A stretch of 64,000 nucleotides of DNA, taken from positions 64,001 through 128,000 of IMG/VR virus record IMGVR_UViG_3300043444_000502; one strand, 5' to 3'. The notes beneath the pieces are model-generated. The model was given only the letters and a program-made list of their open reading frames with translations, was not told the origin of the DNA and did not search any database. Positions 811 through 59,573 of this stretch are shown one piece after another. The DNA is from a virus. Every line of letters starts with the position of its first letter. Positions within the stretch are counted from its first letter, which is position 1. The translations under genes and the position numbers were made by a program.

Positions 811-1881
811 ATGCGTGATTTTATTATTGAAAAGAAACGTGATCCTGAACAAGAATATACGCTTCATTTATTTGAACATTGCAATCTAAGATGTTCATTT
901 TGCTGGCAAGACCATGAAAATAAAGCAGGGTTGGATACAGTAATTGATAAATTAGATCCTATTGAACTATTCCTTAAAACGGAACAGCGCCACTCTGTAG
1001 TATTCAATGCTATGGGTGGCGAAGTTTTTTCCGATGAAATATTTGATGAAAAACTTTTGCAATCATATAAAGATTTATCATGGGGCATTAAAGAGTTAGG
1101 AAAAAAATATAATAAACTCGTTAAAATTAATTGGGTTACAAACTTAGTAACTCATAAAATTGATTATATTGAAGATTTACTAAATTATTCAAAAACTATT
1201 GGTTTAGAAGCACAATTAGTTACATCATATGATCCGCGCGGAAGATTTAATATAAATCAGTTCGAAGTTTTTAAAAAGAATATGGAATATTTTGGCAAAA
1301 GAATCACATGCATTAGTATGTTATTAAATGCACCAAATATTGAATACATCTTAAAAGATAAAGATTATTATTTCAAAAAGCTTTATAATGAAGGTTATTA
1401 CATATATTTTGATTATTATATGCCAGATGAATCAGCTGAATTTCAAGCTCCATCTGACATTCAATTAAAAAATGTTTTTAAACATTTAATAGATAATTAT
1501 CCTAATGTTCATCCAATATCTGACTGGATTAACAATGATAAAAATTATATTTCATGCAGAACTAGTAAATTGGTTTTAGCTGATGGAACAATCTGTAATT
1601 GCGGTAATTTAGTACAAGACGAAAAAGTTATTAAATTTTATTCATCTAAAATAGAAAAGATGGATAATTCAACCATTGAAAATAATTTTTTACAAAAATA
1701 TAATTGTGCTTCATGTGAATATTTGGATAGATGTACATTAAGTTGTTTTATGCAACATGATTATAAATTTAGGGAAGAACTTGATGAGTGTGTCTACAAA
1801 CTTACGCACAGATATATCGATGATGTTAGATTACAGCGAAAAGCCAACACCTCTATCGATAGTCCCTCCAAATCATATTGA
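811..1881 (+). CDS. Radical SAM protein with SPASM-like C-terminus
   Basis: A 356-residue enzyme with the radical SAM CxxxCxxC motif at Cys24, Cys28 and Cys31 (sequence CNLRCSFCW). These residues bind the [4Fe-4S] cluster that cleaves S-adenosylmethionine. A GGE segment near residue 70 fits the SAM-amino-group motif. The last 110 residues hold clustered cysteines (CNCG, CASC, CTLSC and a late C), the pattern of SPASM/twitch domains that bind auxiliary Fe-S clusters in peptide-modifying enzymes. It starts one base after the previous stop and overlaps the next gene by about 98 bases. The family assignment is firm; the substrate is unknown. Confidence 0.88.
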   Translation: MRDFIIEKKRDPEQEYTLHLFEHCNLRCSFCWQDHENKAGLDTVIDKLDPIELFLKTEQRHSVVFNAMGGEVFSDEIFDEKLLQSYKDLSWGIKELGKKYNKLVKINWVTNLVTHKIDYIEDLLNYSKTIGLEAQLVTSYDPRGRFNINQFEVFKKNMEYFGKRITCISMLLNAPNIEYILKDKDYYFKKLYNEGYYIYFDYYMPDESAEFQAPSDIQLKNVFKHLIDNYPNVHPISDWINNDKNYISCRTSKLVLADGTICNCGNLVQDEKVIKFYSSKIEKMDNSTIENNFLQKYNCASCEYLDRCTLSCFMQHDYKFREELDECVYKLTHRYIDDVRLQRKANTSIDSPSKSY

Positions 1882-2383
1882 AGTATCTTTAGATACTGTA
1901 CCAACAAATTATCCGTATTTACCTAGGATTTGTTCTAGACAAGGATATGTTTTTATGTGGCATACAAATAAAAATGAATATCCAAATTTGTATCAAGTAT
2001 CCCAAAATTGTAAAACTGAATCTCAGTGGTTTACTACTAAAGACCAAAATGGCATCGAATTAGCATTAGCACTTATTCATGAATATGACAATGAAGTAAT
2101 TATTGGATGTGTAAAAACAGCAGGTTATTTAAAAAATGAACCTAAAGAGTTTGTACATACACTTATAAAAAATGTATGGAAAGACATAATTAAAACGTTT
2201 GGACATAAAAAAATTATATGTCCAAGTAGTTCATATCTAGAATACATACATTTATTTTTAAATCAAAAGAGAATTCCACATACTCCATATTGTAAAAAAT
2301 ATATGACTAAAAATAAATTCTATAGAATTGAAAACTATTGGATTAGAGATGGACTTAATAATAAAACCGACAGAAAAGTGTAA
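1784..2383 (+). CDS. Hypothetical protein between two radical SAM genes
   Basis: About 199 residues. I chose the ATG at 1784 over the upstream in-frame 1757 because AGGGAAG at 1771-1777 is a good ribosome binding site for it. A later pair of ATG codons near 1820 is possible. The protein has aromatic and Cys residues but no motif I can assign; its mixed alpha/beta look could fit an acyltransferase-like fold, which is only a guess. Its 5' end lies inside the upstream radical SAM gene and its 3' end inside the downstream one, so it is translationally linked to both and may be a partner or recognition protein. Confidence 0.65.
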   Translation: MSVSTNLRTDISMMLDYSEKPTPLSIVPPNHIEVSLDTVPTNYPYLPRICSRQGYVFMWHTNKNEYPNLYQVSQNCKTESQWFTTKDQNGIELALALIHEYDNEVIIGCVKTAGYLKNEPKEFVHTLIKNVWKDIIKTFGHKKIICPSSSYLEYIHLFLNQKRIPHTPYCKKYMTKNKFYRIENYWIRDGLNNKTDRKV

Positions 2384-3374
2384 TTTTAAATGCACGTTTT
2401 GTTCTTCTACACATATTACTGATGATAAAAGTGTAGAACTTGATCATGCAAAAATCTTTCAGTTCTTAGAAAGATATCCCAATACAAATACTATTATTGT
2501 TAATGGAGGAGATCCATTAATGATGCCTCCAGAATATTATCAAGAAATACTAGATTGGTTAGATGAACGAAATTATAAAACTACCATAAGTTTTACAACA
2601 AATCTTTGGCCGTTTTATAAGAATCCTACAAAGTGGTCAAATATATTTTCACATAAAAGAGTTGGAGTGACTACATCATTTCAATATGGTGGAGGTCGTC
2701 TTAAAGGAGATTTAACAGAATTTAGTGAAGAAGATTTTTGGAATGTTTCGAATTTATTTGTAACATATTTTGCTTATAGACCTAACTTTATCTCAGTTAT
2801 TACAGAAGAAAATGAACATCTTGCAATTAAAAACGTTGAACTTGCAAAAAAGATGAACACAGAATGTAAATTAAATTATGCGATGTCTTCAGGACCTCCT
2901 GTAAAATTTAAAGGTATTATTATGGGTCAAGAAGGTAAACCATATCTTCTTGCAAAGATCTATGAAATTTATGTTGAAATTTGGAAACGCGGATTAGCTC
3001 CTTGGGAGTTTAATACTAAACAAATGATGCAACGATTAAAGGGTCATGCAACATGTTGTCCACAAAATCGTGATTGTGATTCTGGTATCAGAGTTCTTCA
3101 ACCATCTGGAGATTATTATTCATGCGGTGCATTTGGAGATGATAGGCAATATCCAATTAATTTCTACAAAGAAATGAATGGAGAATTTATTCAACCATTA
3201 AAGCATCAGTTTGAATTACAAACAATGACTCCTAATTGTTACGGTTGTTCTATGTTCGATATATGTAATGGTTGTAAAAAAACAATCAAAGATCACAAAG
3301 ATTACAATTTAACAGAAATACATTGCAAAAAAATGAAATCATTAGCTCAGGATATAATTTATGCTAATAACTGA
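2349..3374 (+). CDS. Radical SAM protein with SPASM-like C-terminus
   Basis: A 341-residue radical SAM enzyme. From the ATG at 2349 the cluster motif is Cys11, Cys15, Cys18 (CNFKCTFC), the usual N-terminal place. A TTG at 2328 is less likely. A GGDP motif follows in the first third. The C-terminus holds many Cys (CCPQNRDC, then SCGAF, CYGCSMFDICNGC and a last CKK), as expected for SPASM-type auxiliary clusters. It overlaps the previous gene by 35 bases and the next by 14. It differs clearly from the radical SAM proteins at 811 and 3897, so it is not a recent duplicate. Confidence 0.88.
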   Translation: MDLIIKPTEKCNFKCTFCSSTHITDDKSVELDHAKIFQFLERYPNTNTIIVNGGDPLMMPPEYYQEILDWLDERNYKTTISFTTNLWPFYKNPTKWSNIFSHKRVGVTTSFQYGGGRLKGDLTEFSEEDFWNVSNLFVTYFAYRPNFISVITEENEHLAIKNVELAKKMNTECKLNYAMSSGPPVKFKGIIMGQEGKPYLLAKIYEIYVEIWKRGLAPWEFNTKQMMQRLKGHATCCPQNRDCDSGIRVLQPSGDYYSCGAFGDDRQYPINFYKEMNGEFIQPLKHQFELQTMTPNCYGCSMFDICNGCKKTIKDHKDYNLTEIHCKKMKSLAQDIIYANN

Positions 3375-3900
3375 TATACACAATGAGTTTTTTAATAATG
3401 GTTTTTGCAAATTTAATGATCCAGAAGTATTTAAATTTTTACATGACATAGATTCTTGGGAATGGAAAAACTGGAAAGATCAAGGATTACAATTAATTAA
3501 ACGCAATCATACTATTGAATCTGCCATAATACAAACACAAAAATATATTGGTGAAAAATATATTTGTAAATTGGATGAAAATTATGTTTTGGGTGACGAG
3601 TGCGAAATAGTTAATGGAATGGATGATGCAACATTAACGTGGCATAATGACAATATTGAAGGTTATAATTTGTGTGTTTTATTATATTTTGATTCTATGG
3701 ATGAAGATATCGGTGGCATGACTCGTTTTAGAGATATTAACACTAAAAAATTGACTGGAGAATTTTATCCACAGCAATATGATGTTTCTTTTATGAATCA
3801 TTGTTTAAGATTTCAACACGTTGTAACTCCATTAATTTTAGATATGCCAAGAAGAGTTGCGTTATTTAATTATAAAATAAATGAGATTTTGACAGGATGA
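3361..3900 (+). CDS. 2OG-Fe(II) oxygenase-like protein
   Basis: A 179-residue protein with the layout of a 2-oxoglutarate/Fe(II) dioxygenase. An HxD pair (His95, Asp97 in WHNDN) is followed by beta-rich sequence, a distal His153 (FQHVV) and Arg164/165 before a hydrophobic strand. In this family HxD...H binds iron and the late Arg binds the carboxylate of 2-oxoglutarate. The size matches prolyl/lysyl-hydroxylase-like phage proteins. It overlaps the radical SAM genes on both sides (ATG inside the upstream stop region; its TGA overlaps the next ATG), so it is part of the same operon. Substrate unknown. Confidence 0.75.
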   Translation: MLITDIHNEFFNNGFCKFNDPEVFKFLHDIDSWEWKNWKDQGLQLIKRNHTIESAIIQTQKYIGEKYICKLDENYVLGDECEIVNGMDDATLTWHNDNIEGYNLCVLLYFDSMDEDIGGMTRFRDINTKKLTGEFYPQQYDVSFMNHCLRFQHVVTPLILDMPRRVALFNYKINEILTG

Positions 3901-4829
3901 TACTTTCAATCAATCCATGGTATTATTGTAATTTCAGATGTGAATTTTGTTATCTTACAGAAAAACAATTATCTGATAAAAAGCTTTTATCGCTTGACAA
4001 ATTAGCGAATATATTAGGCGAAATTGTTGCGCATAAACAAATTGATATGGTTGATTTATATGGCGGAGAATTGGGATTATTACCAAAGGAATATTGGAAT
4101 GATTTGATACAATTATTGCATAATTATGGAATATATGATATTAATTTAATTACTAATTTATCAATGATTAATGATATTACTATAGATGAACGAGTTTATA
4201 CATCAGTTAGTTATGATTTTAAAGCTCGTGAAGATTTTTTCAGAGTGTGGAAAAATATGGCTTTAATGAATAAACCATTTTCTATATTAATGTTAGCATC
4301 TCCAGGATTAATTAGCGAAAGCATTGACGATATAGTTTCAATGTTTAATTCTTTAAAAAATCTTGAATCTGTTGAAATTAAACCATACAGCAAAAATCAA
4401 GCCAATCAGTTTTCTATCAAAGATGATATTTACGAAGAATATGTCAAAAAATGGATATTACATAAAGATCGTAAATTTAAATTGGTTAATGAATCTCTCC
4501 TGGAATCTGTAGTAAATAGATCTAGGAATAGTTTTTCTGATGATCATGTTTATATTACACCCAATGGAAAATATGGCGTATTAGAATTTGATTTGAATGA
4601 TAATGAATATTTTTTAGAATATGATACTTTAGACGAATATTTTGCTTGGTGTGAAACTGAAAAAAAGAGAGTTTCTAAAAATAAATTCTGTAGTAGTTGC
4701 AAGTATTTTGGAAGGTGTTTATCAGAACATCTTAGAGATGTTAAAAGTTTAGATAATAGTTGTAATGGATATTATAAATTAATTGATTGGTATGAAAGAC
4801 TGGAAAATAAAACAAGAAATATATCATAG
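3897..4829 (+). CDS. Radical SAM protein
   Basis: A 310-residue radical SAM enzyme with Cys11, Cys15, Cys18 (CNFRCEFCY) close to the N-terminus and a GGE motif near residue 60. The C-terminus has a compact Cys group (FCSSCKYFGRC, then SCNGY), which looks like a short twitch or SPASM remnant binding one extra cluster. It starts by a 4-base ATGA overlap with the preceding oxygenase and overlaps the next gene by 38 bases. It is the third and smallest radical SAM enzyme in the cassette. Confidence 0.87.
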   Translation: MILSINPWYYCNFRCEFCYLTEKQLSDKKLLSLDKLANILGEIVAHKQIDMVDLYGGELGLLPKEYWNDLIQLLHNYGIYDINLITNLSMINDITIDERVYTSVSYDFKAREDFFRVWKNMALMNKPFSILMLASPGLISESIDDIVSMFNSLKNLESVEIKPYSKNQANQFSIKDDIYEEYVKKWILHKDRKFKLVNESLLESVVNRSRNSFSDDHVYITPNGKYGVLEFDLNDNEYFLEYDTLDEYFAWCETEKKRVSKNKFCSSCKYFGRCLSEHLRDVKSLDNSCNGYYKLIDWYERLENKTRNIS

Positions 4830-5190
4830 GTTGAATATTCAACATGATGATGATTTAAGTACTAAAGATATTCAAATTAGTACTAATATTATTGAAGATG
4901 CTATTAAATATTTTAATGAACGAGATCTTGGTTGGTTATATCCAGCTAAAAGTTATATGGTAGCTATATGTTATGCTAAATGGATAGCTAAAGAATTTAA
5001 TGAAAATAGAATGGATCTTTTAAATGATCCAGATTTATTACATGGTAATGATCCATATTTTGTGCCATATACACAAGATCCAGATACATATATCGGAATT
5101 TTTCAAAAGATTAATAGTTGGGATTTTGACGAATCTGCCGGAATGGTGCCAGATGTTAGATCATATTTCGAAAAAGAATTTATGTTATGA
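4792..5190 (+). CDS. Hypothetical protein in modification cassette
   Basis: A 132-residue, mostly helical protein rich in Trp, Tyr and Asp, with a conserved-looking block around GNDPYFVPY. The ATG at 4792 is preferred to an upstream TTG at 4783. It lacks cysteine clusters and an HxD motif, so it is neither a radical SAM enzyme nor an oxygenase. It sits between the third radical SAM gene and two tandem oxygenase genes and overlaps both neighbours. I do not recognise the family. Confidence 0.7.
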   Translation: MKDWKIKQEIYHRLNIQHDDDLSTKDIQISTNIIEDAIKYFNERDLGWLYPAKSYMVAICYAKWIAKEFNENRMDLLNDPDLLHGNDPYFVPYTQDPDTYIGIFQKINSWDFDESAGMVPDVRSYFEKEFML

Positions 5191-5699
5191 AGTTATATGA
5201 TCTGTGGCCAACTCGTGTAGTTAATGTAGATGTTCCATTGGACCTATGCACCAAAATTTATTCACAACATATCAATGTTCAATCTAAAGATTATGAAGAA
5301 GTCCTAGATGATAATGATAAAAGAACGTTGTTAGAATATGTGAATCGTTATTACCTGGCGGAATATGATATATGTGATGGTTGGATTAGAACTCTAACAT
5401 CTAAAGGTCATAATAATTTCGAATTGCACTGTGATAGTCATTATGGCAATCAATTGGTTGGTGTACTTCAATTGTTTGGTGATGAGGATAGAGGCGGAGA
5501 TATTAAATTATATGATCCAGCTTGGAGAAATCCTCAATGGATGTCAGATACTAAAAACAAGAATAGTAACACATTTGTAGTACCATTTAAAGCAGGTCAG
5601 TTTATTATATTCCCAGCTAATGTTTGGCATAGTGTTGAAACTTATTATGGTGAATCAAATAGAGTCACTTTAAATTTAATGTTTAGAAGAATAACATGA
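5187..5699 (+). CDS. 2OG-Fe(II) oxygenase superfamily protein
   Basis: A 170-residue protein starting with a WPTRV strand, as is common in the phage and marine-bacterial 2OG-Fe(II) oxygenase family of the PF13759 type. Likely iron ligands are His81 and Asp83 with the distal His148 (VWHSV); Arg159 (SNRVTLNLMF) would bind 2-oxoglutarate. The RGGDIKLYDP block is also typical of this family. It overlaps both neighbours by 4 bases (ATGA). With the following gene it forms a tandem pair of related but diverged oxygenases. Confidence 0.82.
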   Translation: MKLYDLWPTRVVNVDVPLDLCTKIYSQHINVQSKDYEEVLDDNDKRTLLEYVNRYYLAEYDICDGWIRTLTSKGHNNFELHCDSHYGNQLVGVLQLFGDEDRGGDIKLYDPAWRNPQWMSDTKNKNSNTFVVPFKAGQFIIFPANVWHSVETYYGESNRVTLNLMFRRIT

Positions 5700-6268
5700 T
5701 AAAACAACTTTGGCCAACATATTTCATGCAAGACACTATGGAAACTAGTATTATGCATGAAATGATATATTATCTAACTGTAGAATGTGACTTCAATAAA
5801 CCTCCATCTGATTTTGGATTAGAGAATATATTAGATAGTAAACATCCATCAGTATTAAAGTTCAAACAACAAGTTATTATTCCATCATTTAATAAGTATT
5901 TAAAAAATACCATCAATAAACAAATTGATGATTGGGCTGGATATAAAATGAAAGGTTGGTTAGCAGGAACTGGAAATGATTATAGTTTAAATTACCATAA
6001 TCATAGGGGAGCTCAAATTTCTGCAGTTTTTTATTTGTTATGTGAAGATCATAATAAAGGAGGTAATATTGCTTTTACTGATCCTAGACAAAACGCCAAT
6101 AGAGGATATGATGAAAACTTTACTCCATGGTTTAATGATGAAATTTTAAAGGTAAAATCTGGTGACATCGTAGTATTTCCAAGTTTTTTATATCATTTTG
6201 TCAGCACATATCGAGGATCTATGCGGTTGGCAATGCCTGTAGATTTATTTTTACATACTAACTCCTAG
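5696..6268 (+). CDS. 2OG-Fe(II) oxygenase superfamily protein
   Basis: A 190-residue relative of the preceding gene. It has the same LWPT N-terminus, an iron-binding HxH at His101/His103 in place of HxD, GGNIAFTDPR, a distal His167 (LYHFVS) and Arg177. HxH variants occur in this family. It overlaps the previous gene by 4 bases and is the last gene of the cassette. The next gene begins only after a gap of about 56 bases that carries a late promoter, so this is a clear end of the unit. Confidence 0.8.
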   Translation: MIKQLWPTYFMQDTMETSIMHEMIYYLTVECDFNKPPSDFGLENILDSKHPSVLKFKQQVIIPSFNKYLKNTINKQIDDWAGYKMKGWLAGTGNDYSLNYHNHRGAQISAVFYLLCEDHNKGGNIAFTDPRQNANRGYDENFTPWFNDEILKVKSGDIVVFPSFLYHFVSTYRGSMRLAMPVDLFLHTNS

Positions 6269-13335: not shown

Positions 13336-14007
13336 ATGGCAACACGTTTAACACAGACCGGTATCGAATATCCAGACGGTACCGTTCAAATTCAACGCTT
13401 TGATGGCAATGATGATCGTGGCGGTCTTTTACAGATCGCTACGTATACTGGTAGTAGTACGTGGTACAAACCTGATGGAGCACGTCAAATTCGTGTTCTA
13501 GTTATTGGTGGCGGTGGCGGTGGTTGCGGTCACACAGAATCTGGTGGTGCAGGTGGTTTTGCTGAAAAATGGATTGATGTTTCTAGTTGGGCAAATGGTA
13601 CTGCTGTTACTGTAACATGTGGTGGTGCTGGAGATGGTAGAAACTATTTCCAAGGTTGTGGTAATGGCGGAACATCTTCTTTCGGTGGATATTGTTCAGC
13701 TTCTGGTGGTCATGGTGCTAACACACAATGGGGTCATACAGGAGGAACAGGCGGTGTAGGTTCCGGCGGAGATATCAACCTTAGAGGTGGCGGTGGCCAT
13801 GGCCATGATAATGAAGCTGCTTCTCAAGGTGGTACAGGTTATTTTGGTGGCGGTTCATTTGGTAACCACCACAGTTATCGCCCTCACTATGCTGAAGGCA
13901 CAAACCATAATGCACCCGGTGGTGGTGGAGCTGGTAACTGGATTACTAATCACGGTCGCGGAGCATATGGTTCTGACGGTGCTGTCATCGTTTATAGCTA
14001 CGCATAA
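13336..14007 (+). CDS. Glycine-rich adhesin, copy 1 of 3
   Basis: A 223-residue protein. The N-terminus has a TxxGIEYPDGTVQ motif, then a strand-rich part (TWYKPDGARQIRVLVIGGGG), then about 130 residues of Gly-rich loops with His, Cys, Asn and aromatics, and a last strand (GAVIVYSYA). Such polyglycine loop domains form receptor-binding tips in T-even gp38-like adhesins and other phage fibres. It follows the large fibre by 6 bases and is the first of three tandem paralogues of nearly equal length. Confidence 0.8.
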   Translation: MATRLTQTGIEYPDGTVQIQRFDGNDDRGGLLQIATYTGSSTWYKPDGARQIRVLVIGGGGGGCGHTESGGAGGFAEKWIDVSSWANGTAVTVTCGGAGDGRNYFQGCGNGGTSSFGGYCSASGGHGANTQWGHTGGTGGVGSGGDINLRGGGGHGHDNEAASQGGTGYFGGGSFGNHHSYRPHYAEGTNHNAPGGGGAGNWITNHGRGAYGSDGAVIVYSYA

Positions 14008-14019
14008 GGAAAAAGATTT

Positions 14020-14685
14020 ATGTCTATTAAATTAGGTCAAGCAGGTGTAGTATATCCAGATGGCGTAGCACAATCAACTAAATATGATACTTCGCTAGAT
14101 AGAGGTAAGGTTATTAGAGTTGACTTCTGGACTAGTAATGCTACGTGGAATAAACCAGCGGGTTGCAGAAAAATTTTCGTACAAGTAATTGGCGGCGGTG
14201 GTGGCGGTTGTGGCCACTGTGAAGCTGGTGGTGCTGGCGGTTATGCAGAAAAATTAATCGATGTTACTGGTATAGATAGTGTATCAGTAACAGTTGGTGG
14301 TGGTGGAGATGGTCGTAACTATCATCAAGGTTGCGGTGGCGGCGGTACAACATCATTTGGATCATATCTATCAGCATCTGGTGGTAATGGTGCAAATACT
14401 TGGGGTTCTCATACTGGCGGTCATGGCGGTGTAGGTTCTGGTGGTGACGTTAATTTACACGGCGGCGGAGGTCGTTCACATGGTGATCAAGGCCAATCTA
14501 AAGGTGGCGAAGGTTATTTTGGTGGAGCTAGTGCATCAGGACATCATGGCGGCAATTTCTACTCACACTACGCCGAAGGTTTAAATCATTGTCCTCCAGG
14601 TACAGGAGGTTCAGGAGAGTGGACATCACATTCTCGTGGTGCGTATGGTGTACAAGGTTGCTGTATCGTATATAATTATTCTTAA
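14020..14685 (+). CDS. Glycine-rich adhesin, copy 2 of 3
   Basis: A 221-residue paralogue of the preceding protein, with the same plan: YPDGVAQ near the N-terminus, TWNKPAGCRKIFVQVIGGGG, a long Gly/His/Ser-rich loop domain and a closing strand (CCIVYNYS). The frame blocks are well kept while the loops between them differ, as expected if loop variation tunes receptor recognition. Spacing of 12 bases on each side shows co-translation. Confidence 0.8.
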   Translation: MSIKLGQAGVVYPDGVAQSTKYDTSLDRGKVIRVDFWTSNATWNKPAGCRKIFVQVIGGGGGGCGHCEAGGAGGYAEKLIDVTGIDSVSVTVGGGGDGRNYHQGCGGGGTTSFGSYLSASGGNGANTWGSHTGGHGGVGSGGDVNLHGGGGRSHGDQGQSKGGEGYFGGASASGHHGGNFYSHYAEGLNHCPPGTGGSGEWTSHSRGAYGVQGCCIVYNYS

Positions 14686-14697
14686 GAAGATAAAGTT

Positions 14698-15360
14698 ATG
14701 TCAGTAAAATTAGGTCAAACAAATATTACGTACCCAGACGGTACTACGCAAGCAGCTAAATATACATCTGCAGATGATAAAGGTAATTTACTAAGTATTC
14801 AATCATGGACTAGTAATGGTACATGGACAAAACAAGCTGGTGTAAGAAGCATTCGTGTTATGTTAGTTGGTGGCGGTGGTGGTGGATCTGGTCATGGTCA
14901 ATCTGGTGGTGCTGGCGGTTATTCTGAAAAAAGAATCGACGTATCATCTTGGGCTGATGGCACTACAGTAAGCGTCACAATTGGTGATGAAGGCGGTGGC
15001 GCACATTCAAATAACTCAGGCGGTCAAGGTGGCACAACATCATTTGGTTCATATTTGTCTGCAACAGGTGGTCGAGGCGCTAATCAAGATTGGGGTCATT
15101 GCGGTGGTCATGGTGGCGTAGGTTCTGGCGGCGACATCAATCTTCGTGGTGGTGGTGCATCAGGACATGATAACCGCGGAGGTCGCGGTGGTGCATCATT
15201 CTTCGGCGGTTCTAAATTCTCAGGTTGGCCAAATCACCATTTCTCACATCAACATGAAGGACATGTTCCTCCAGGTGCTGGTGGGTGTGGTGAACACGTT
15301 AATCATTCGCGCGGTGCGCATGGTGCAAGAGGTATCTGTATCGTATATAACTATAGTTAA
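14698..15360 (+). CDS. Glycine-rich adhesin, copy 3 of 3
   Basis: A 220-residue third paralogue (YPDGTTQ, TWTKQAGVRSIRVMLVGGGG, GSGGDINLRGGG, ICIVYNYS). It shares blocks with both others; the GVGSGGD[IV]NL block is common to all three. The Gly-rich loops are the variable part. It ends the adhesin cluster 30 bases before the halogenase gene. Confidence 0.8.
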   Translation: MSVKLGQTNITYPDGTTQAAKYTSADDKGNLLSIQSWTSNGTWTKQAGVRSIRVMLVGGGGGGSGHGQSGGAGGYSEKRIDVSSWADGTTVSVTIGDEGGGAHSNNSGGQGGTTSFGSYLSATGGRGANQDWGHCGGHGGVGSGGDINLRGGGASGHDNRGGRGGASFFGGSKFSGWPNHHFSHQHEGHVPPGAGGCGEHVNHSRGAHGARGICIVYNYS

Positions 15361-15390: not shown

Positions 15391-17013
15391 ATGCAAGTTA
15401 AAAGTGTCTTAATTGTTGGTGGTGGTAGTTCAGGATGGATGACAGCTGCAGCGATTAAAAAACAATTGCCACATATTGATATTACATTAGTTGAATCTGA
15501 TAAAGTTCCAACTATTGGAGTGGGCGAATCAACAATTGGTCAAATCAACAGTTTTATGATGGCTGTTGGTTTAAAAGATAAAGATCATGAATGGATGCCT
15601 AAATGTAATGCTACATATAAAACATCCATTAGATTTACAGATTTCAGAGAAAAAAATGAAAAGCCTAATACTTTTCATTATCCATTTGGAATATTTGATT
15701 TAACTGACAAAGAACGTGGTGCGATGGATTGGTTCTATATGCAATTAGACGATCCATCTATTCCTCCAGAAAATTTTGCTGAATTTTATCATGATCACGT
15801 TATCATGGCAAATCAGATGAAATTTACTGATAACAAAGATCATGAAATTAGAATGTTTAATTTTAAGTTTGATACTGCATATCATATGGATGCAGCGTTA
15901 TTTGGACAATACTTAAAAAATAATATTTGTATTCCTGAAGGTGTTAAACATATTGTTGATGATGTTACAGGAGTAATTCAAAATGAAGATGGTTATGTAA
16001 CTGGTGTTACAACGGTAACAAATGGTGTATTAAAAGCTGACCTATTTGTTGATTGTACTGGTTTTAAATCTATGTTATTAGAAGGTGCTATGGGAGCAGA
16101 GTTTGTTTCTTTCCATGACACGCTAATGAATGATAGTGCAATTGCTACAATTATTCCATATCTAGACAAAGATAAAGAAATGTCTAGTGTAACAAACTGT
16201 ACAGCAATTGATGCTGGTTGGGTTTGGAATATTCCATTATATAATCGAATCGGCACAGGTTATGTGTATTCTTCAAAGTTTGCAACTAAAGAAGAAGCTG
16301 AAGCACAATTTAGAAAACATTTGGCTTCAGATAGAATGGATTATGTCGATGAACGTTCTAAAGAACGTGCTGAACAAGCAGAATTTAGACATATTAAAAT
16401 TAAACATGGATGTCATAGACGTTCTTGGATTAAAAACGTAGTAGGTGTTGGTTTAGCTAATGGGTTTATTGAACCATTAGAATCCACTGGTCTTATGTTA
16501 ACGCATGAAGCAATTATGAAATTAATTGATGTGTTAGACATGAGAGATGGCTATGTAAATCAATATGATATTGATACATTCAATTTTACAATGTTTGATC
16601 AAGTAAATGGATTTAAAGAATTTATTTCTTTACATTATACTCTTTCTAAGAGAAATGATACTCCATATTGGAAACATGTAACTGAAGGTTTTACATATTC
16701 CAATGAAATGATTGAATGGAAACCTAAAATTAGAAATCCATATACAGATTTAGCATATAGAAATTTAGTAAATCACACATATGGTCCAGATCAGGGCGGT
16801 TTAATTTATATTGCAGCTGGTCATGGTTATAATCCATTATCTAAGCGTTGGATTGATGATGAAGCTCAACGCATTAATATAAATATGGGATATGATATAA
16901 AGAAAACTAGGAAGTTGTGGGAAGATCACGTTAAAGAGTTACAAATAACTTTAGACAAACTTCCGACACATTATCAATGGTTAAAACAAAATTATTACAA
17001 TAATCAGGAGTAA
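15391..17013 (+). CDS. Flavin-dependent halogenase (tryptophan-halogenase family)
   Basis: A 540-residue protein with every hallmark of flavin-dependent halogenases (PF04820). These are the FAD-binding GGGSSG at 10-15, the WxWxIP motif as WVWNIP at 277-282, a lysine at 77 in the position of PrnA Lys79, and FIEPLESTG at 359-367 near the chloride/flavin site. These enzymes use FADH2, O2 and halide to make HOX, which passes through a tunnel to the lysine. Its length equals tryptophan 7-halogenases. No flavin reductase gene is visible, so reduced flavin probably comes from the host. A related cyanophage enzyme (VirX1) has been characterised. Substrate unknown. Confidence 0.9.
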   Translation: MQVKSVLIVGGGSSGWMTAAAIKKQLPHIDITLVESDKVPTIGVGESTIGQINSFMMAVGLKDKDHEWMPKCNATYKTSIRFTDFREKNEKPNTFHYPFGIFDLTDKERGAMDWFYMQLDDPSIPPENFAEFYHDHVIMANQMKFTDNKDHEIRMFNFKFDTAYHMDAALFGQYLKNNICIPEGVKHIVDDVTGVIQNEDGYVTGVTTVTNGVLKADLFVDCTGFKSMLLEGAMGAEFVSFHDTLMNDSAIATIIPYLDKDKEMSSVTNCTAIDAGWVWNIPLYNRIGTGYVYSSKFATKEEAEAQFRKHLASDRMDYVDERSKERAEQAEFRHIKIKHGCHRRSWIKNVVGVGLANGFIEPLESTGLMLTHEAIMKLIDVLDMRDGYVNQYDIDTFNFTMFDQVNGFKEFISLHYTLSKRNDTPYWKHVTEGFTYSNEMIEWKPKIRNPYTDLAYRNLVNHTYGPDQGGLIYIAAGHGYNPLSKRWIDDEAQRININMGYDIKKTRKLWEDHVKELQITLDKLPTHYQWLKQNYYNNQE

Positions 17014-37824: not shown

Positions 37825-38274
37825 ATGCTAACTCTTGAACAAATTTTAGAACAGTGGAAAAAAGATTGCGAGATCGATGATATGGAACTCGACAAATCTT
37901 CACGTGAAACACCAAAACTACATGCAAAATATATTGAACTATTATCATTAGCTAAACTACAAAAGCAACGTAAAGATATGGAATTTAAACGCTTGCTAAA
38001 AGATAAATTCATGTGGTATAACGGTAAAATGGACAAAAATACAATGGATGAAAAAGGTTGGGAATACGATCCATTTGGTGGACTAATTAAACCGTTAAAG
38101 AGTGATATGGATTATTTTTATGAAAGTGATCCACAAATTCAAGCGCTTCAATCTCAAATTGAATATTGGAAGACTATGATAGATACTATATCAGAGATTG
38201 TTTCTAATATTACATGGAGACATCAAACTATTTCAAATATGATTAAGTGGCGACAGTTCACTTCAGGCGTATGA
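37825..38274 (+). CDS. uvsY: UvsY recombination mediator
   Basis: A 149-residue homologue of T4 UvsY (137 residues), which loads UvsX recombinase on gp32-coated single-stranded DNA. The helical layout, a KDKFMWYNGKMDK block and the QALQSQIEYWKTMIDTISEI region match the family. It starts behind a sigma70-like promoter and overlaps the next gene by 4 bases. UvsX itself is not in this window. Confidence 0.88.
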   Translation: MLTLEQILEQWKKDCEIDDMELDKSSRETPKLHAKYIELLSLAKLQKQRKDMEFKRLLKDKFMWYNGKMDKNTMDEKGWEYDPFGGLIKPLKSDMDYFYESDPQIQALQSQIEYWKTMIDTISEIVSNITWRHQTISNMIKWRQFTSGV

Positions 38275-38924
38275 TACCTACAATTGTTATTGATAATTTT
38301 TTCCCTCAACCAGATAATGTGCGAAATTATGCATTATCACTTAAAGAATGGCATGCTGATGAAGAGTTGAGATGGCCAGGAATTCGTACTAATAGTTTAC
38401 ATACCTTTGCGTTAGATAAACATGCAGAATTAGTATGGTCTATCTACAATTGTTTACCTCGTCATTTAGCTATGAAATATGGTTCATTTAAAAAATTTGA
38501 TGCGATGTTTCAAATTGTTAGCGAAGATTATATTGATGGTTGGATTCATGATGATGGTGCAGATTTAGATTTTGCGGGTTTAATTTACTTAAATAAAAAT
38601 CCGTGCGATGATAGCGGAACTTCAATATATCACCATATAACTGATGAATTAGAATATTTTGGTGAAGAAGAACGAGAACTAAAGAAAAAATTTCTATCTA
38701 AACCAGAACACCGCAGAGATTACGATTTATTAAAAAATAATAGACATTCACAGTTTAAAGAAGTTACTAAAATAGAAAATGTGTACAATAGATGTATCAT
38801 TTATGATGCATATGCTTGGCATAGAGCGAATAAATATTTTGGTAAAACAAAGGAAGATTCTAGATTGACACTAGTATTCTTCGGTAAATTTGATGATGGA
38901 CAAACTAACAATATCCAAAGTTAA
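38271..38924 (+). CDS. 2OG-Fe(II) oxygenase-like protein (DUF6445-like)
   Basis: A 217-residue protein. I chose the ATG at 38271 (ATGA overlap with uvsY). The iron site is visible as WIHDDG (His then Asp) and the distal WHRANKYFG, with Arg in SRLTLVFFG for 2-oxoglutarate. It resembles the DUF6445 group of small dioxygenase-like proteins. It sits between uvsY and uvsW, two recombination genes, and overlaps uvsW, so it is co-expressed early or middle. Substrate unknown. Confidence 0.72.
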   Translation: MIPTIVIDNFFPQPDNVRNYALSLKEWHADEELRWPGIRTNSLHTFALDKHAELVWSIYNCLPRHLAMKYGSFKKFDAMFQIVSEDYIDGWIHDDGADLDFAGLIYLNKNPCDDSGTSIYHHITDELEYFGEEERELKKKFLSKPEHRRDYDLLKNNRHSQFKEVTKIENVYNRCIIYDAYAWHRANKYFGKTKEDSRLTLVFFGKFDDGQTNNIQS

Positions 38925-55044: not shown

Positions 55045-55073
55045 TTTACTTTTTAATCTAGTTGTGGTATAAT
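55045..55073 (+). promoter_or_regulatory. Sigma70-like promoter, DNA polymerase
   Basis: TTTACT, 17 bases, TATAAT with TGTGG. The expected start of transcription, 7 bases after the box, is the A of the ATG at 55080. Confidence 0.82.
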
Positions 55074-55079
55074 ATAGCT

Positions 55080-57596
55080 ATGGAATTCTATACTAATATA
55101 TCTCGTTACGGCAATCAACTCCTTTATCGTGGATACAAGGATGGTCGCCGTATCCAAACAAAAATCCCCTTTTCTCCAACACTTTTTGTCCCAGTAGAAA
55201 AACCTACGGGATGGATAGCTGTCGATGGAAAACATGTTGAACCATACCGTTGCGAAACTATGCGCGACGCAAAAGAATTTATGGAACGTTATAAAGATGT
55301 TTCTAATTTCGAAATCTATGGTAACACTAATTATATTGCACAATTCGTTACTGAAAAATTTCCAGGAATAATTAAATTTGATCCTACAATTGTCAATATT
55401 ACTTCAATCGATATCGAAGTAGCTTCTAATGAAGGTTTCCCAGAACCAGAAGAAGCAAAATATCCAATCATTTCTATCGCAATTAAGAATAATATTGATA
55501 ACACATATTATGTGTGGGGTCTTGGACCTTATGATGTAAGTAAATCTATTATGCAAAATAATAGAGTTGTGTATGTTCAATGCAAAGATGAACAAGAATT
55601 GTTAGTTCGATTTATAAATCATTGGGGTTCAGCTACACATATTCCAGATATTGTTACAGGTTGGAATATTCGTAATTTTGATATTCCATATATCGTCAAT
55701 CGTTGCGCTCGTATCCTTGATGGTGATACTATTAGAAAATTATCTCCATGGGGTAGAGTCGAAGAAAAACTTGTTACAATGCAAAAGAAACAAGTTCAAA
55801 TGTATGATATCATCGGTATTGCACAACTTGACTGGATGGATTTATTTAAAAAGTTTGGTCACACTTATGGTCCACAAGAAAATTATCGTCTAGATACGAT
55901 TGCTAATACTGTGCTTGGTGAACATAAGCTTGATTATGATGGCACACTACACACATTGTACATGACTGATCATCAGAAGTTTATCGACTATAACATTCGA
56001 GATGTTGATCTTGTTGTTCGTATGGAAGAAAAAGTTGGATTGATCGTTCTATGTTTGACTATGGCTTATAAAGCTGGTGTTAACTATAACGATACATTTG
56101 GTACTACTTCTATTTGGGATACATTAATCTATCGTTATCTTACTCCACAAAATATTGCGGTACCTCCAAATAGAGAATCATTCAAAGAAGCTTATGATGG
56201 TGGTTATGTTAAGGAACCGCAATGTGGTGTGCATGATTGGGTTGCATCATTCGACGTAAACTCTCTGTATCCAAACATCATTGTACAATGGAACATGTCA
56301 CCTGAAACTATCGTTAAAGGTCGTCATGATCATCGTGTAAGTCCTGATTCTATTCTCGAAGGTTATGTACCTGAGAAGACTGAATATGGTGTATGTGGTT
56401 CTGGTCAAATGTTCTCTAATGAGAAACAGGGTTTCATGCCTAAGATTATTGAAGAACTATATGATGAGCGTGTTAAAGTTAAGAAGATGATGCTAGCTTC
56501 TAAACGAGAACTTGAATCATGTGATAAAACAAATAAGCAAGAAGTGTATAGAATTGAACGTGATATTGTTCGTTATGAAAATGAACAAACAGCTATTAAA
56601 CTTTTGCTTAACTCACTTTATGGTGCACTTGGTAATAAGTACTTCCGTTACTTTACGATGGAGATTGCAGAAGGCATCACATTATCTGGCCAATCGATCA
56701 TTCGTTGGGCTGAAAAAGCAGTTAATGATTATCTAAATAAAGCACTAAGAAACCAAAAGTACAAAGACTATGTCATCGCTATTGATACTGATTCTGTTTA
56801 TGTTAATCTTGGTGAGGTTGTTAAGGCGTCGAAATTAACAGACAAAACTAAGATCACTAACTTCCTTGATAAGTTGTGCAGTGAAGCATTAGAATCTGTA
56901 TTGGATAAAGCATTCATTCAGATTACAGAAAATATGAATTGCTTTAAGAAGCGTCTAACTATGAAGCGTGAAGCTATTGCAGATCGTGCCATTTGGACTG
57001 CTAAGAAACGTTATATCTTAAATGTACTAGATAACGAAGGTGTACGATATGCAAAACCGAAGCTTAAGATCATGGGAATCGAGGCGATCAAGTCCTCAAC
57101 ACCGGGCACGTGTCGCGAGGCTTTTGAAGAATTGTTTAAAGTGCTCATCTCAGGTACGGAAACTGAAACTCAAACTTTTATTCAATCTTATAGAGAAAAA
57201 TTTGAGTCACTTCCGCCCGAAGATAAAGCGTTCCCGCGCGGGGTTTCACAAGTTAAGGAATACCAATCGCGTGATACGATCTACAAGAAAGGTACGCCGA
57301 TAAATTCACGTGCTGCTATCTTGTATAATCATATGCTTGATAAAAACGGATTGAAGACTTATACACCAATCCGTGGTGGTGACAAGATTAAGTACATTTA
57401 TTTGTATCCAAACAATCCAACAAAAGAAGATGTAATTGGATTTGTAGATATTTTACCACCTGAATTTAAACTAGATAAGTATATCGATAACGATAAACAA
57501 TTTGAAAAGGCTTTTCTTGAACCAGCTAAATTAATTTTAGATGCTATCGGTTGGAAAGCTGAACCAGTTGCAACATTAGAGGACTTTTTTGGATGA
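55080..57596 (+). CDS. 43: DNA polymerase gp43 (family B)
   Basis: An 838-residue family B polymerase (T4 gp43 is 898). Exonuclease motif SIDIEV near 111-116, motif A FDVNSLYPNI near 390, motif B around KLLLNSLYGALGNKYFRY near 510, motif C IDTDSVY near 567. I chose the ATG at 55080; the upstream TTG lies inside the promoter. No ribosome binding site is visible. Around 57040-57300 G/C content rises sharply. It overlaps a halogenase gene by 4 bases. Confidence 0.96.
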   Translation: MEFYTNISRYGNQLLYRGYKDGRRIQTKIPFSPTLFVPVEKPTGWIAVDGKHVEPYRCETMRDAKEFMERYKDVSNFEIYGNTNYIAQFVTEKFPGIIKFDPTIVNITSIDIEVASNEGFPEPEEAKYPIISIAIKNNIDNTYYVWGLGPYDVSKSIMQNNRVVYVQCKDEQELLVRFINHWGSATHIPDIVTGWNIRNFDIPYIVNRCARILDGDTIRKLSPWGRVEEKLVTMQKKQVQMYDIIGIAQLDWMDLFKKFGHTYGPQENYRLDTIANTVLGEHKLDYDGTLHTLYMTDHQKFIDYNIRDVDLVVRMEEKVGLIVLCLTMAYKAGVNYNDTFGTTSIWDTLIYRYLTPQNIAVPPNRESFKEAYDGGYVKEPQCGVHDWVASFDVNSLYPNIIVQWNMSPETIVKGRHDHRVSPDSILEGYVPEKTEYGVCGSGQMFSNEKQGFMPKIIEELYDERVKVKKMMLASKRELESCDKTNKQEVYRIERDIVRYENEQTAIKLLLNSLYGALGNKYFRYFTMEIAEGITLSGQSIIRWAEKAVNDYLNKALRNQKYKDYVIAIDTDSVYVNLGEVVKASKLTDKTKITNFLDKLCSEALESVLDKAFIQITENMNCFKKRLTMKREAIADRAIWTAKKRYILNVLDNEGVRYAKPKLKIMGIEAIKSSTPGTCREAFEELFKVLISGTETETQTFIQSYREKFESLPPEDKAFPRGVSQVKEYQSRDTIYKKGTPINSRAAILYNHMLDKNGLKTYTPIRGGDKIKYIYLYPNNPTKEDVIGFVDILPPEFKLDKYIDNDKQFEKAFLEPAKLILDAIGWKAEPVATLEDFFG

Positions 57597-59071
57597 ACAC
57601 TAGAATTAAAAAAATGATTATTGTAGGAGGCGGTACAGCTGGTTTAGTTGCTGCCATTATTCACAAACGCCTAAATCCCACTATTGAGATTCAAGTTTTA
57701 GAATCATCAGAGATTGGAATTATCGGCGTTGGAGAAGGTAGCACAGAACATTGGAATATGTTTATTGACCAATGCAATCTAAGTCGTGCAGAAGTGATGA
57801 AAGAATGTGCTGCTACCATTAAAACTGGCATTAAGTTTGTAAATTGGAATGGCAAAGGTGATGACGACGTGTATTTTCATTCAGTGATTGGACCATATGA
57901 TTCAGTGTTCATCAATGGAGTGTTTTCATATTGGACTAATGCATTAGTTACAGGTAAGTCATCAGTTGAAATGACATCGCCTAGAATTCCTGTAAGTATG
58001 TTCCAAAAGGGTGATGGTCCAGGAACTAATCAATATCATTTCGATACCTTTAAACTTAATCAATATTTGCATAAAGTAGCAAAGGAACGTGGTGTTATAT
58101 TTACCGATGCAATAGTCAATGAAGTAAAATTAAAAGAAAACGGTTATGTAAAATCTTTAATTGATAATGCTGGAAATGAATACGTAGCAGATTTTTTCAT
58201 CGATGCTAGTGGATTTAATAGAGTTATCATGAATAAACTAGGAGCAAAATGGATTGATTGCAAAAAGTATTTGCCAATGAATCATGCAATTGCTTTCCCT
58301 ACAGAATATCAAGAAGATATTGACGCATTTACGACTGCACACGCTAGAAATGCAGGTTGGTCATGGCGTATTCCAACTCAAGAACGATTTGGTAATGGAT
58401 ACGTTTTCTGTGATGATTATATCACAAAAGAACAAGCACACGCAGAAATGGAACAAATCTTTGGTAGATCTATTGAAATCGGCCGAGATATTAAATTTGG
58501 TGCAGGTCATGTGGATAGACCGATGATTAATAACTGTACTGCTATTGGTTTAGCTGGCGTTTTCGTTGAACCACTTGAAGCTTCTAGTATTGGTGCAACT
58601 ATTCAACAGTGTTTTGCGTTATCAACATCATTGCAAATGTATGAAGAAGGTAATAAAACATTAGAGAATATTCATAACAAGCAAATGCTTAAAATGTTCT
58701 CAAATATTATTGACTACATTCAAATTCATTATTTTACAAAGCGTGATGATACAGCATTTTGGAAAGATAAACCGTTTGAAATTACAGAATTTAATAAAGA
58801 AACTATTGATACAATGAAACGTTCATTGCCTTCTATTCATTATTTCCAAGATCCATATCTTATGTTTAGACATGTAAATTGGTTTATGACTATGGAAGGA
58901 TTAAAGTTATTTGACATTGAAGAAATTAAGCGTATTCACGCTGAACAACCACCACAGGCTTGGGAAGAAGTGAATACATTTTTTGATAACGCAACTATCG
59001 CATTTAGAGAAGGTGCAAAAAACAAACACCGCGATCAATTGCAAGATATCATGAGCGGTATGTACAATTAA
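57593..59071 (+). CDS. Flavin-dependent halogenase, second copy
   Basis: A 492-residue protein of the tryptophan-halogenase family. GGGTAG at 12-17 for FAD, Lys77 in the PrnA Lys79 position, WxWxIP as WSWRIP at 256-261, and FVEPLEASS at 324-332. It is diverged from the halogenase at 15391 and shorter by 48 residues, so the substrates probably differ. Its ATG overlaps the stop of DNA polymerase (ATGA), which ties its translation to polymerase. Substrate unknown. Confidence 0.9.
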   Translation: MNTRIKKMIIVGGGTAGLVAAIIHKRLNPTIEIQVLESSEIGIIGVGEGSTEHWNMFIDQCNLSRAEVMKECAATIKTGIKFVNWNGKGDDDVYFHSVIGPYDSVFINGVFSYWTNALVTGKSSVEMTSPRIPVSMFQKGDGPGTNQYHFDTFKLNQYLHKVAKERGVIFTDAIVNEVKLKENGYVKSLIDNAGNEYVADFFIDASGFNRVIMNKLGAKWIDCKKYLPMNHAIAFPTEYQEDIDAFTTAHARNAGWSWRIPTQERFGNGYVFCDDYITKEQAHAEMEQIFGRSIEIGRDIKFGAGHVDRPMINNCTAIGLAGVFVEPLEASSIGATIQQCFALSTSLQMYEEGNKTLENIHNKQMLKMFSNIIDYIQIHYFTKRDDTAFWKDKPFEITEFNKETIDTMKRSLPSIHYFQDPYLMFRHVNWFMTMEGLKLFDIEEIKRIHAEQPPQAWEEVNTFFDNATIAFREGAKNKHRDQLQDIMSGMYN

Positions 59072-59074
59072 TAA

Positions 59075-59103
59075 TGTACAACAAAGAAAAAATGTGGTAT
59101 AAT
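59075..59103 (+). promoter_or_regulatory. Sigma70-like promoter, pyrophosphohydrolase gene
   Basis: TGTACA, 17 bases, TATAAT with TGTGG before the -10. Drives the gene at 59124. Confidence 0.86.
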
Positions 59104-59123: not shown

Positions 59124-59573
59124 ATGAGTGAATTTATGAACAGTAAATGGGTTGGTGATATTGCAGCAATGCATACAAAATTTGGCGTTAATAAAGTATT
59201 GCGTCAACTTGATCGTGATAAGCTTGAGGCATTCCTTAAGTTTCGAATTGACTTCTTGCAAGAAGAACTTGACGAGATGCGTAAAGCTGTAGTTGATCGT
59301 CAAACTGGCAAGATTGATGCAACTACTGCAGCAGATGATACAGTCGATGCATTGATTGATCTTTGTGTTGTTGCTATTGGTACATTGAATGCTTTCGACG
59401 TAAATGCAGATGAAGCATGGAATCGCGTACATCGTGCAAATATGACTAAGGAAGTTGGTATCAAAGAATCTCGACCAAATCCGCTTGGTCTTCCAGATCT
59501 AATTAAACCTGAAGGTTGGACAGCACCAACTCATGCTGATAACATAGGTATGTTGAACAAAGTATTTGAGTAA
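59124..59573 (+). CDS. MazG/PRA-PH-like NTP pyrophosphohydrolase
   Basis: A 149-residue all-helical protein. FLQEELDEMRKAV (about 44-56) and DDTVDALIDLCVVAIG (about 72-87) give the ExxE...ExxD-like metal site of MazG and phosphoribosyl-ATP pyrophosphohydrolase-type enzymes. The end (PNPLGLPDLIKPEGW) is common in phage members. It may remove dCTP or other nucleotides, which would fit a phage with modified cytosine, as an inference. Confidence 0.8.
   Translation: MSEFMNSKWVGDIAAMHTKFGVNKVLRQLDRDKLEAFLKFRIDFLQEELDEMRKAVVDRQTGKIDATTAADDTVDALIDLCVVAIGTLNAFDVNADEAWNRVHRANMTKEVGIKESRPNPLGLPDLIKPEGWTAPTHADNIGMLNKVFE

Follow-up and report, generated by a model that had tools for sequence, protein, structure and literature searches.

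An apparently working flavin-dependent halogenase (FDH), here called H2, was found by sequence directly behind the DNA polymerase gene gp43 of an aquatic, T4-like phage, in a slot where relatives carry other genes or none. The window, i.e. the whole stretch of DNA that was analysed, comprises 64,000 nucleotides (positions 64,001 to 128,000 of IMG/VR virus record IMGVR_UViG_3300043444_000502). The phage was assigned as T4-like on its major capsid protein, which shows 62-64% identity to its counterparts in Pelagibacter phages Mosig and HTVC008M, OM43 (Methylophilales) phage Melnitz and a Stenotrophomonas phage. The replication unit contains the following features.

55045..55073, + strand: early/middle-type promoter 5' of gp43 (TTTACT-N17-TATAAT with extended TGTGG)
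55080..57596, + strand: gp43, family B DNA polymerase (PF00136/PF03104; PHROG 262, E=0)
57578..57583, + strand: AGAGGA, Shine-Dalgarno-like, within the codons for the gp43 C-terminus LEDFF, 9 nt 5' of the H2 ATG
57593..59071, + strand: H2, flavin-dependent halogenase with intact catalytic residues (ORF of 492 amino acids)
59075..59103, + strand: promoter of mazG, the next gene after H2 (TGTACA-N17-TATAAT with TGTGG), also present at the empty site of relatives
59124..59573, + strand: MazG-like nucleotide pyrophosphohydrolase (PF01503, PHROG 671), directly after gp43 in halogenase-free relatives

H2 has the motifs and fold of a flavin-dependent halogenase

Profile searches matched H2 to Pfam Trp_halogenase (PF04820, E=1.5e-91, residues 7-439) and to PHROG 2928 tryptophan halogenase (E=2.3e-93), and PrnA was its top PDB sequence match (E~2e-57). 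The GxGxxG dinucleotide motif (GGGTAG), the catalytic Lys (K77), WxWxIP (WSWRIP, 256-261) and the catalytic Glu (E329, within FVEPLE) are all present and fall on the catalytic alignment columns of the family. The AF2 model (pLDDT 92.3) has the FDH fold and matched SttH, Xcc4156, BrvH and PrnA with VIA Z 46-49 and about 470 residues aligned, the best being SttH (Z 49.4, rmsd 2.2 across 470 residues). Profiles, motif alignment and fold thus agree with the initial annotation, which had described a diverged halogenase with WSWRIP, Lys77 and FVEPLEASS at 57593-59071. Taken alone, the identity of H2 and its position in the gp43 slot are practically certain. Among the three halogenases found in this slot dN/dS was 0.14-0.21, which shows purifying selection.

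H2 was compared with characterised halogenases. VirX1 of cyanophage Syn10 (PDB 6QGM), a viral FDH that prefers iodide, has the fold and the catalytic Lys and Glu in common with H2 (VIA Z 37.7), but it belongs to another clade (phmmer E=9.5e-38), and the Syn10 gene closest to H2 adjoins another halogenase, whereas H2 sits behind gp43. The tryptophan halogenases PrnA, RebH and SttH have a similar fold and similar active-site motifs at about 26-29% identity. The C-terminal Trp-binding residues of PrnA are Y443, E450, F454 and W455; the phmmer alignment of H2 with PrnA reaches only to PrnA position 434 and so does not extend to the E450/F454 portion of this site. No pyrrolnitrin-type pathway was seen near H2. 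Among the closest structural matches were also the non-Trp bacterial FDHs Xcc4156 and BrvH (Z 47.9 and 46.8), which are classed as indole halogenases without assigned Trp regiochemistry (PMC8269204). The bacterial relatives that were found often adjoin TonB receptors (10 of 58 neighbours), whereas H2 is phage-borne and part of a replication unit. The closest isolate phage proteins include the PrnA homologues of cyanophages P-SSM2 and S-H38 and Pelagibacter phage HTVC008M (33-40% identity). Their loci are unlike that of H2: the gene follows nrdB in P-SSM2, precedes the large terminase in HTVC008M, and in S-H38 has endonuclease V genes nearby and a tail fibre gene upstream.

The 3' end of gp43 is a cargo site

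The H2 start had been described as overlapping the polymerase stop codon by ATGA, and the coordinates confirmed this, with the gp43 TGA at 57594-57596 and the H2 ATG at 57593-57595. Nine ATGA overlaps were counted in the checked gene set of this phage, so the overlap is by itself ordinary. The listed polymerase ORF of 844 amino acids begins at a TTG at 55062; since this lies inside the promoter, gp43 likely starts at ATG 55080. The LEDFF end of gp43 is conserved, and relatives have GAGGA or GAAGA there whether or not another gene follows.

In halogenase-free relatives with a gp43 77-86% identical to that of the window (11 loci, with the junction sequence inspected in eight), mazG follows about 40 nt after gp43 and is preceded by a TGTGGTATAAT promoter. 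Three phages, represented by the window, L006/L091 and L013, have a halogenase whose start overlaps the gp43 stop as ATGA. In the window and in L013 it is directly followed by the TGTGGTATAAT promoter and mazG; the L006/L091 contig stops within the halogenase gene. The same slot holds an ORF of 66 or 75 amino acids in L100, L101 and L103 and a 2OG-Fe(II) oxygenase in L112, again with ATGA. This variety of genes marks the gp43 3' end as a cargo site, and an exclusive tie of H2 to gp43 was ruled out by the empty sites and the other genes in the slot. The position of H2 therefore tells more about when the gene is expressed than about a tie to the polymerase. Between the window and L006/L091 the two genes have similar dS (halogenase 1.00, gp43 0.91); together with a halogenase dN/dS of 0.14 this indicates that the halogenase has been inherited along with gp43 and kept by purifying selection. 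The genes for mazG, thymidylate synthase and deaminase near H2 also occur in relatives that lack H2. As a separate observation, the slot has a built-in Shine-Dalgarno-like sequence, at the 57596/59124 junction as well as in L100, L101, L103 and L112.

A second halogenase belongs to another lineage

The late half of the window contains another halogenase, H1, next to tail-fibre-like genes.

13336..15360, + strand: three tandem Gly-rich tail-fibre-like proteins beside H1 (the first PHROG 863 tail, the second PF21722, the third by inspection)
15391..17013, + strand: H1, second halogenase, VirX1-like, after the Gly-rich tail-fibre-like proteins

H1 matched VirX1 with E=1.5e-143, has intact motifs and clusters with VirX1 and an S-CREM1 protein in the halogenase tree, and H2 falls outside this VirX1 clade. 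Phylogenetic placement, which the initial annotation had proposed for both copies, thus put H1 and H2 in distant clades; they are old separate lineages, and a recent duplication is ruled out. The whole 167.6 kb record contains no third halogenase. The initial annotation took the two copies to suggest two substrates and two times of action, and regarded a copy without catalytic residues, or relatives at unrelated loci, as evidence against this. Both copies keep the catalytic residues, and putative distinct substrates are plausible. Two or more halogenases in one phage are already known: published cyanophages carry two, a table from 2010 (PMC3037559) lists genomes that have two prnA genes, and the paired halogenases of Syn10 and S-RIM44 are neighbours. 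Gly-rich tail-fibre-like proteins adjoin VirX1-type halogenases both here and at L007:12709-13350, and are candidate modification targets.

The two copies appear to differ in expression class. The motif TGnTATAAT was found at eight + strand sites of the window, spanning 37.8-60.9 kb, and all eight were intergenic (intergenic DNA is 5% of the sequence) and 15-51 nt 5' of a gene. One precedes gp43 and one follows H2, and the promoters flank gp43 and H2 as one unit. In the left half of the window there are several T4-late-like TATAAATA sites 5' of genes; their total in the window was not above chance, so that only their positions are informative and this late-class evidence is weaker. H2 would accordingly be in an early/middle unit, a class assignment drawn from promoter motifs and synteny, and H1 in the late half. 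For the two times of action this means that the motifs place H2 with the gp43 unit and H1 in the late half, the support being that of motifs.

Solitary halogenases recur in replication modules

A separate halogenase clade has its gene between the sliding clamp gene gp45 and the clamp loader gene gp44 at 19 of 19 loci, with gp62 and regA downstream wherever the contig extends that far. The next relative of H2, the L014 halogenase, sits after nrdA-nrdB. Both the gp43/nrd group and the gp45 group are clades with full support, and the test for a single origin of the two gave neither proof nor rejection (p-AU 0.109). Relatives of H2 at unrelated loci do exist, as the isolate homologues lie elsewhere and most close relatives have no halogenase at the gp43 site; on the other side, the two nearest halogenases are in precisely this slot behind gp43, and the gp45-gp44 lineage keeps its own throughout.

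The setting of halogenase genes was surveyed at 55 loci, with oxygenases identified by Pfam; the loci are partly redundant, so the figures are counts and not a test. All nine replication-module loci (gp43 slot, nrd, gp45-gp44) had one halogenase and zero oxygenase-cluster members. Elsewhere 40 of 46 loci had 2-4 halogenases (three in 34), and oxygenase-cluster members were present at 43 of 46. Likewise no halogenase or oxygenase lies next to H2, whose setting differs from the late-region arrays of at least two adjacent halogenases with oxygenases. The newer element thus seems to be the solitary setting within the replication module, and no description of such a lineage was found in the literature searched.

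Some further observations were made on the arrays. In L007:4533-9758, L039, L017/L018, L046 and others, 3-4 distinct halogenase paralogues lie in a fixed order inside 2OG-Fe(II) oxygenase clusters, and two long contigs carry five halogenases apiece. The upstream paralogue in L007, L015, L020, L022 and L024 has its catalytic Glu changed to Gly (FLEPLG) and has lost WxWxIP, beside intact copies; it is possibly a regulatory or non-halogenating partner. The copies of S-PM2 and S-RIM44 have Gln in place of the catalytic Glu. The halogenases of L049/L050/L060 were rejected as polymerase neighbours, the adjoining 843-aa protein being a baseplate hub lysozyme.

Possible function of H2

Phage halogenases are common, and the literature searched gives no natural substrate for them. 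Papers have suggested, as hypotheses, that they give an antibiotic-like protection (PMC2984593, PMC9964418), or that they make a halogenated secondary metabolite or decorate the capsule (PMC7824862). We propose that H2 is an intact FDH captured as cargo between gp43 and the mazG promoter and acting on a host aromatic target in the replication phase, and we give this proposal as a whole about an even chance. The gp43 promoter would drive transcription of H2 and the ribosome site inside the gp43 end would serve its translation, so that H2 would be made in the replication phase. FDHs use FADH2, O2 and halide to form HOX (review PMC8407142). In H2, HOX would load K77, and E329 would orient its attack on an aromatic ring rich in electrons. 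A search of the phage record for a flavin reductase of family PF01613 gave none; the host would therefore supply FADH2, probably through its own flavin reductase. H2 would work by itself, whereas late-region phage halogenases come with 2OG-Fe(II) oxygenases. Its most likely target would be an aromatic small molecule of the host cell or an exposed peptide or protein side chain, rather than DNA or the replisome, and the alteration of this target during replication would favour the infected cell. A halogenase lineage that would be expressed with polymerase and clamp, and that is free of oxygenase clusters, makes early infected cells, and not virions, the place to look for a substrate. The halogenase gene is present in some replication regions and absent from close relatives of them, which offers a clean natural comparison.

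H2 might instead do the same work as the halogenases of the late arrays, i.e. modify phage structural proteins or surface molecules together with oxygenases, and ride behind gp43 for its expression. In the tree H2 falls near the array halogenases, the gp43 slot of L112 carries a 2OG-Fe(II) oxygenase, and the phage itself encodes 2OG oxygenases, radical SAM proteins and Gly-rich tail proteins. The early-type promoter context of H2 and the solitary state of all nine surveyed replication-module loci argue against it, and we find this explanation doubtful. That some halogenase paralogues of phages have lost the catalytic Glu, to Gly or to Gln, brings up a flavoenzyme that no longer halogenates in vivo and, for example, only consumes reduced flavin, O2 or halide. 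For H2 itself this is highly unlikely, as all motifs are kept under purifying selection and the model is close to active FDHs.

The recurrence of this type of halogenase at two replication-module slots could point to a replication-specific target instead. A dedicated solitary lineage in T4-like replisome operons, acting on a nucleotide, phage DNA or a host replication or signalling molecule, is in our view unlikely; if true, such action on a replication-phase target would be a new kind of phage chemistry. More narrowly, H2 could halogenate a nucleotide or its base, for instance at C5 of a pyrimidine, a position open to electrophilic halogenation, and so modify phage DNA or poison host nucleotide pools. 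The two lineages in replication modules, in the gp43 slot and between gp45 and gp44, fit with this, as do the L014 and P-SSM2 copies that come after nrdA-nrdB. However, mazG, thymidylate synthase and deaminase genes are equally present near the site without H2, no co-inherited modification gene was seen, and the pI of 5.8 gives no hint of DNA binding. Moreover, the nucleotide halogenases in the literature searched are Fe(II)/2OG enzymes that act at the sugar C2' (PMC11186838), a class different from that of H2. Halogenation of DNA bases or nucleosides by H2 finds no positive support here, and we rate this explanation as quite improbable.

Other possible modification genes in the window

At 811-6268, before the tail genes, the genes of three radical SAM proteins are interspersed with those of 2OG-Fe(II) oxygenase-like proteins, in what looks like a peptide or protein modification cluster. 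A DUF6445 protein (PF20043) is encoded at 38247-38924; members of this family are also found near bacterial FDHs and in phage oxygenase clusters.
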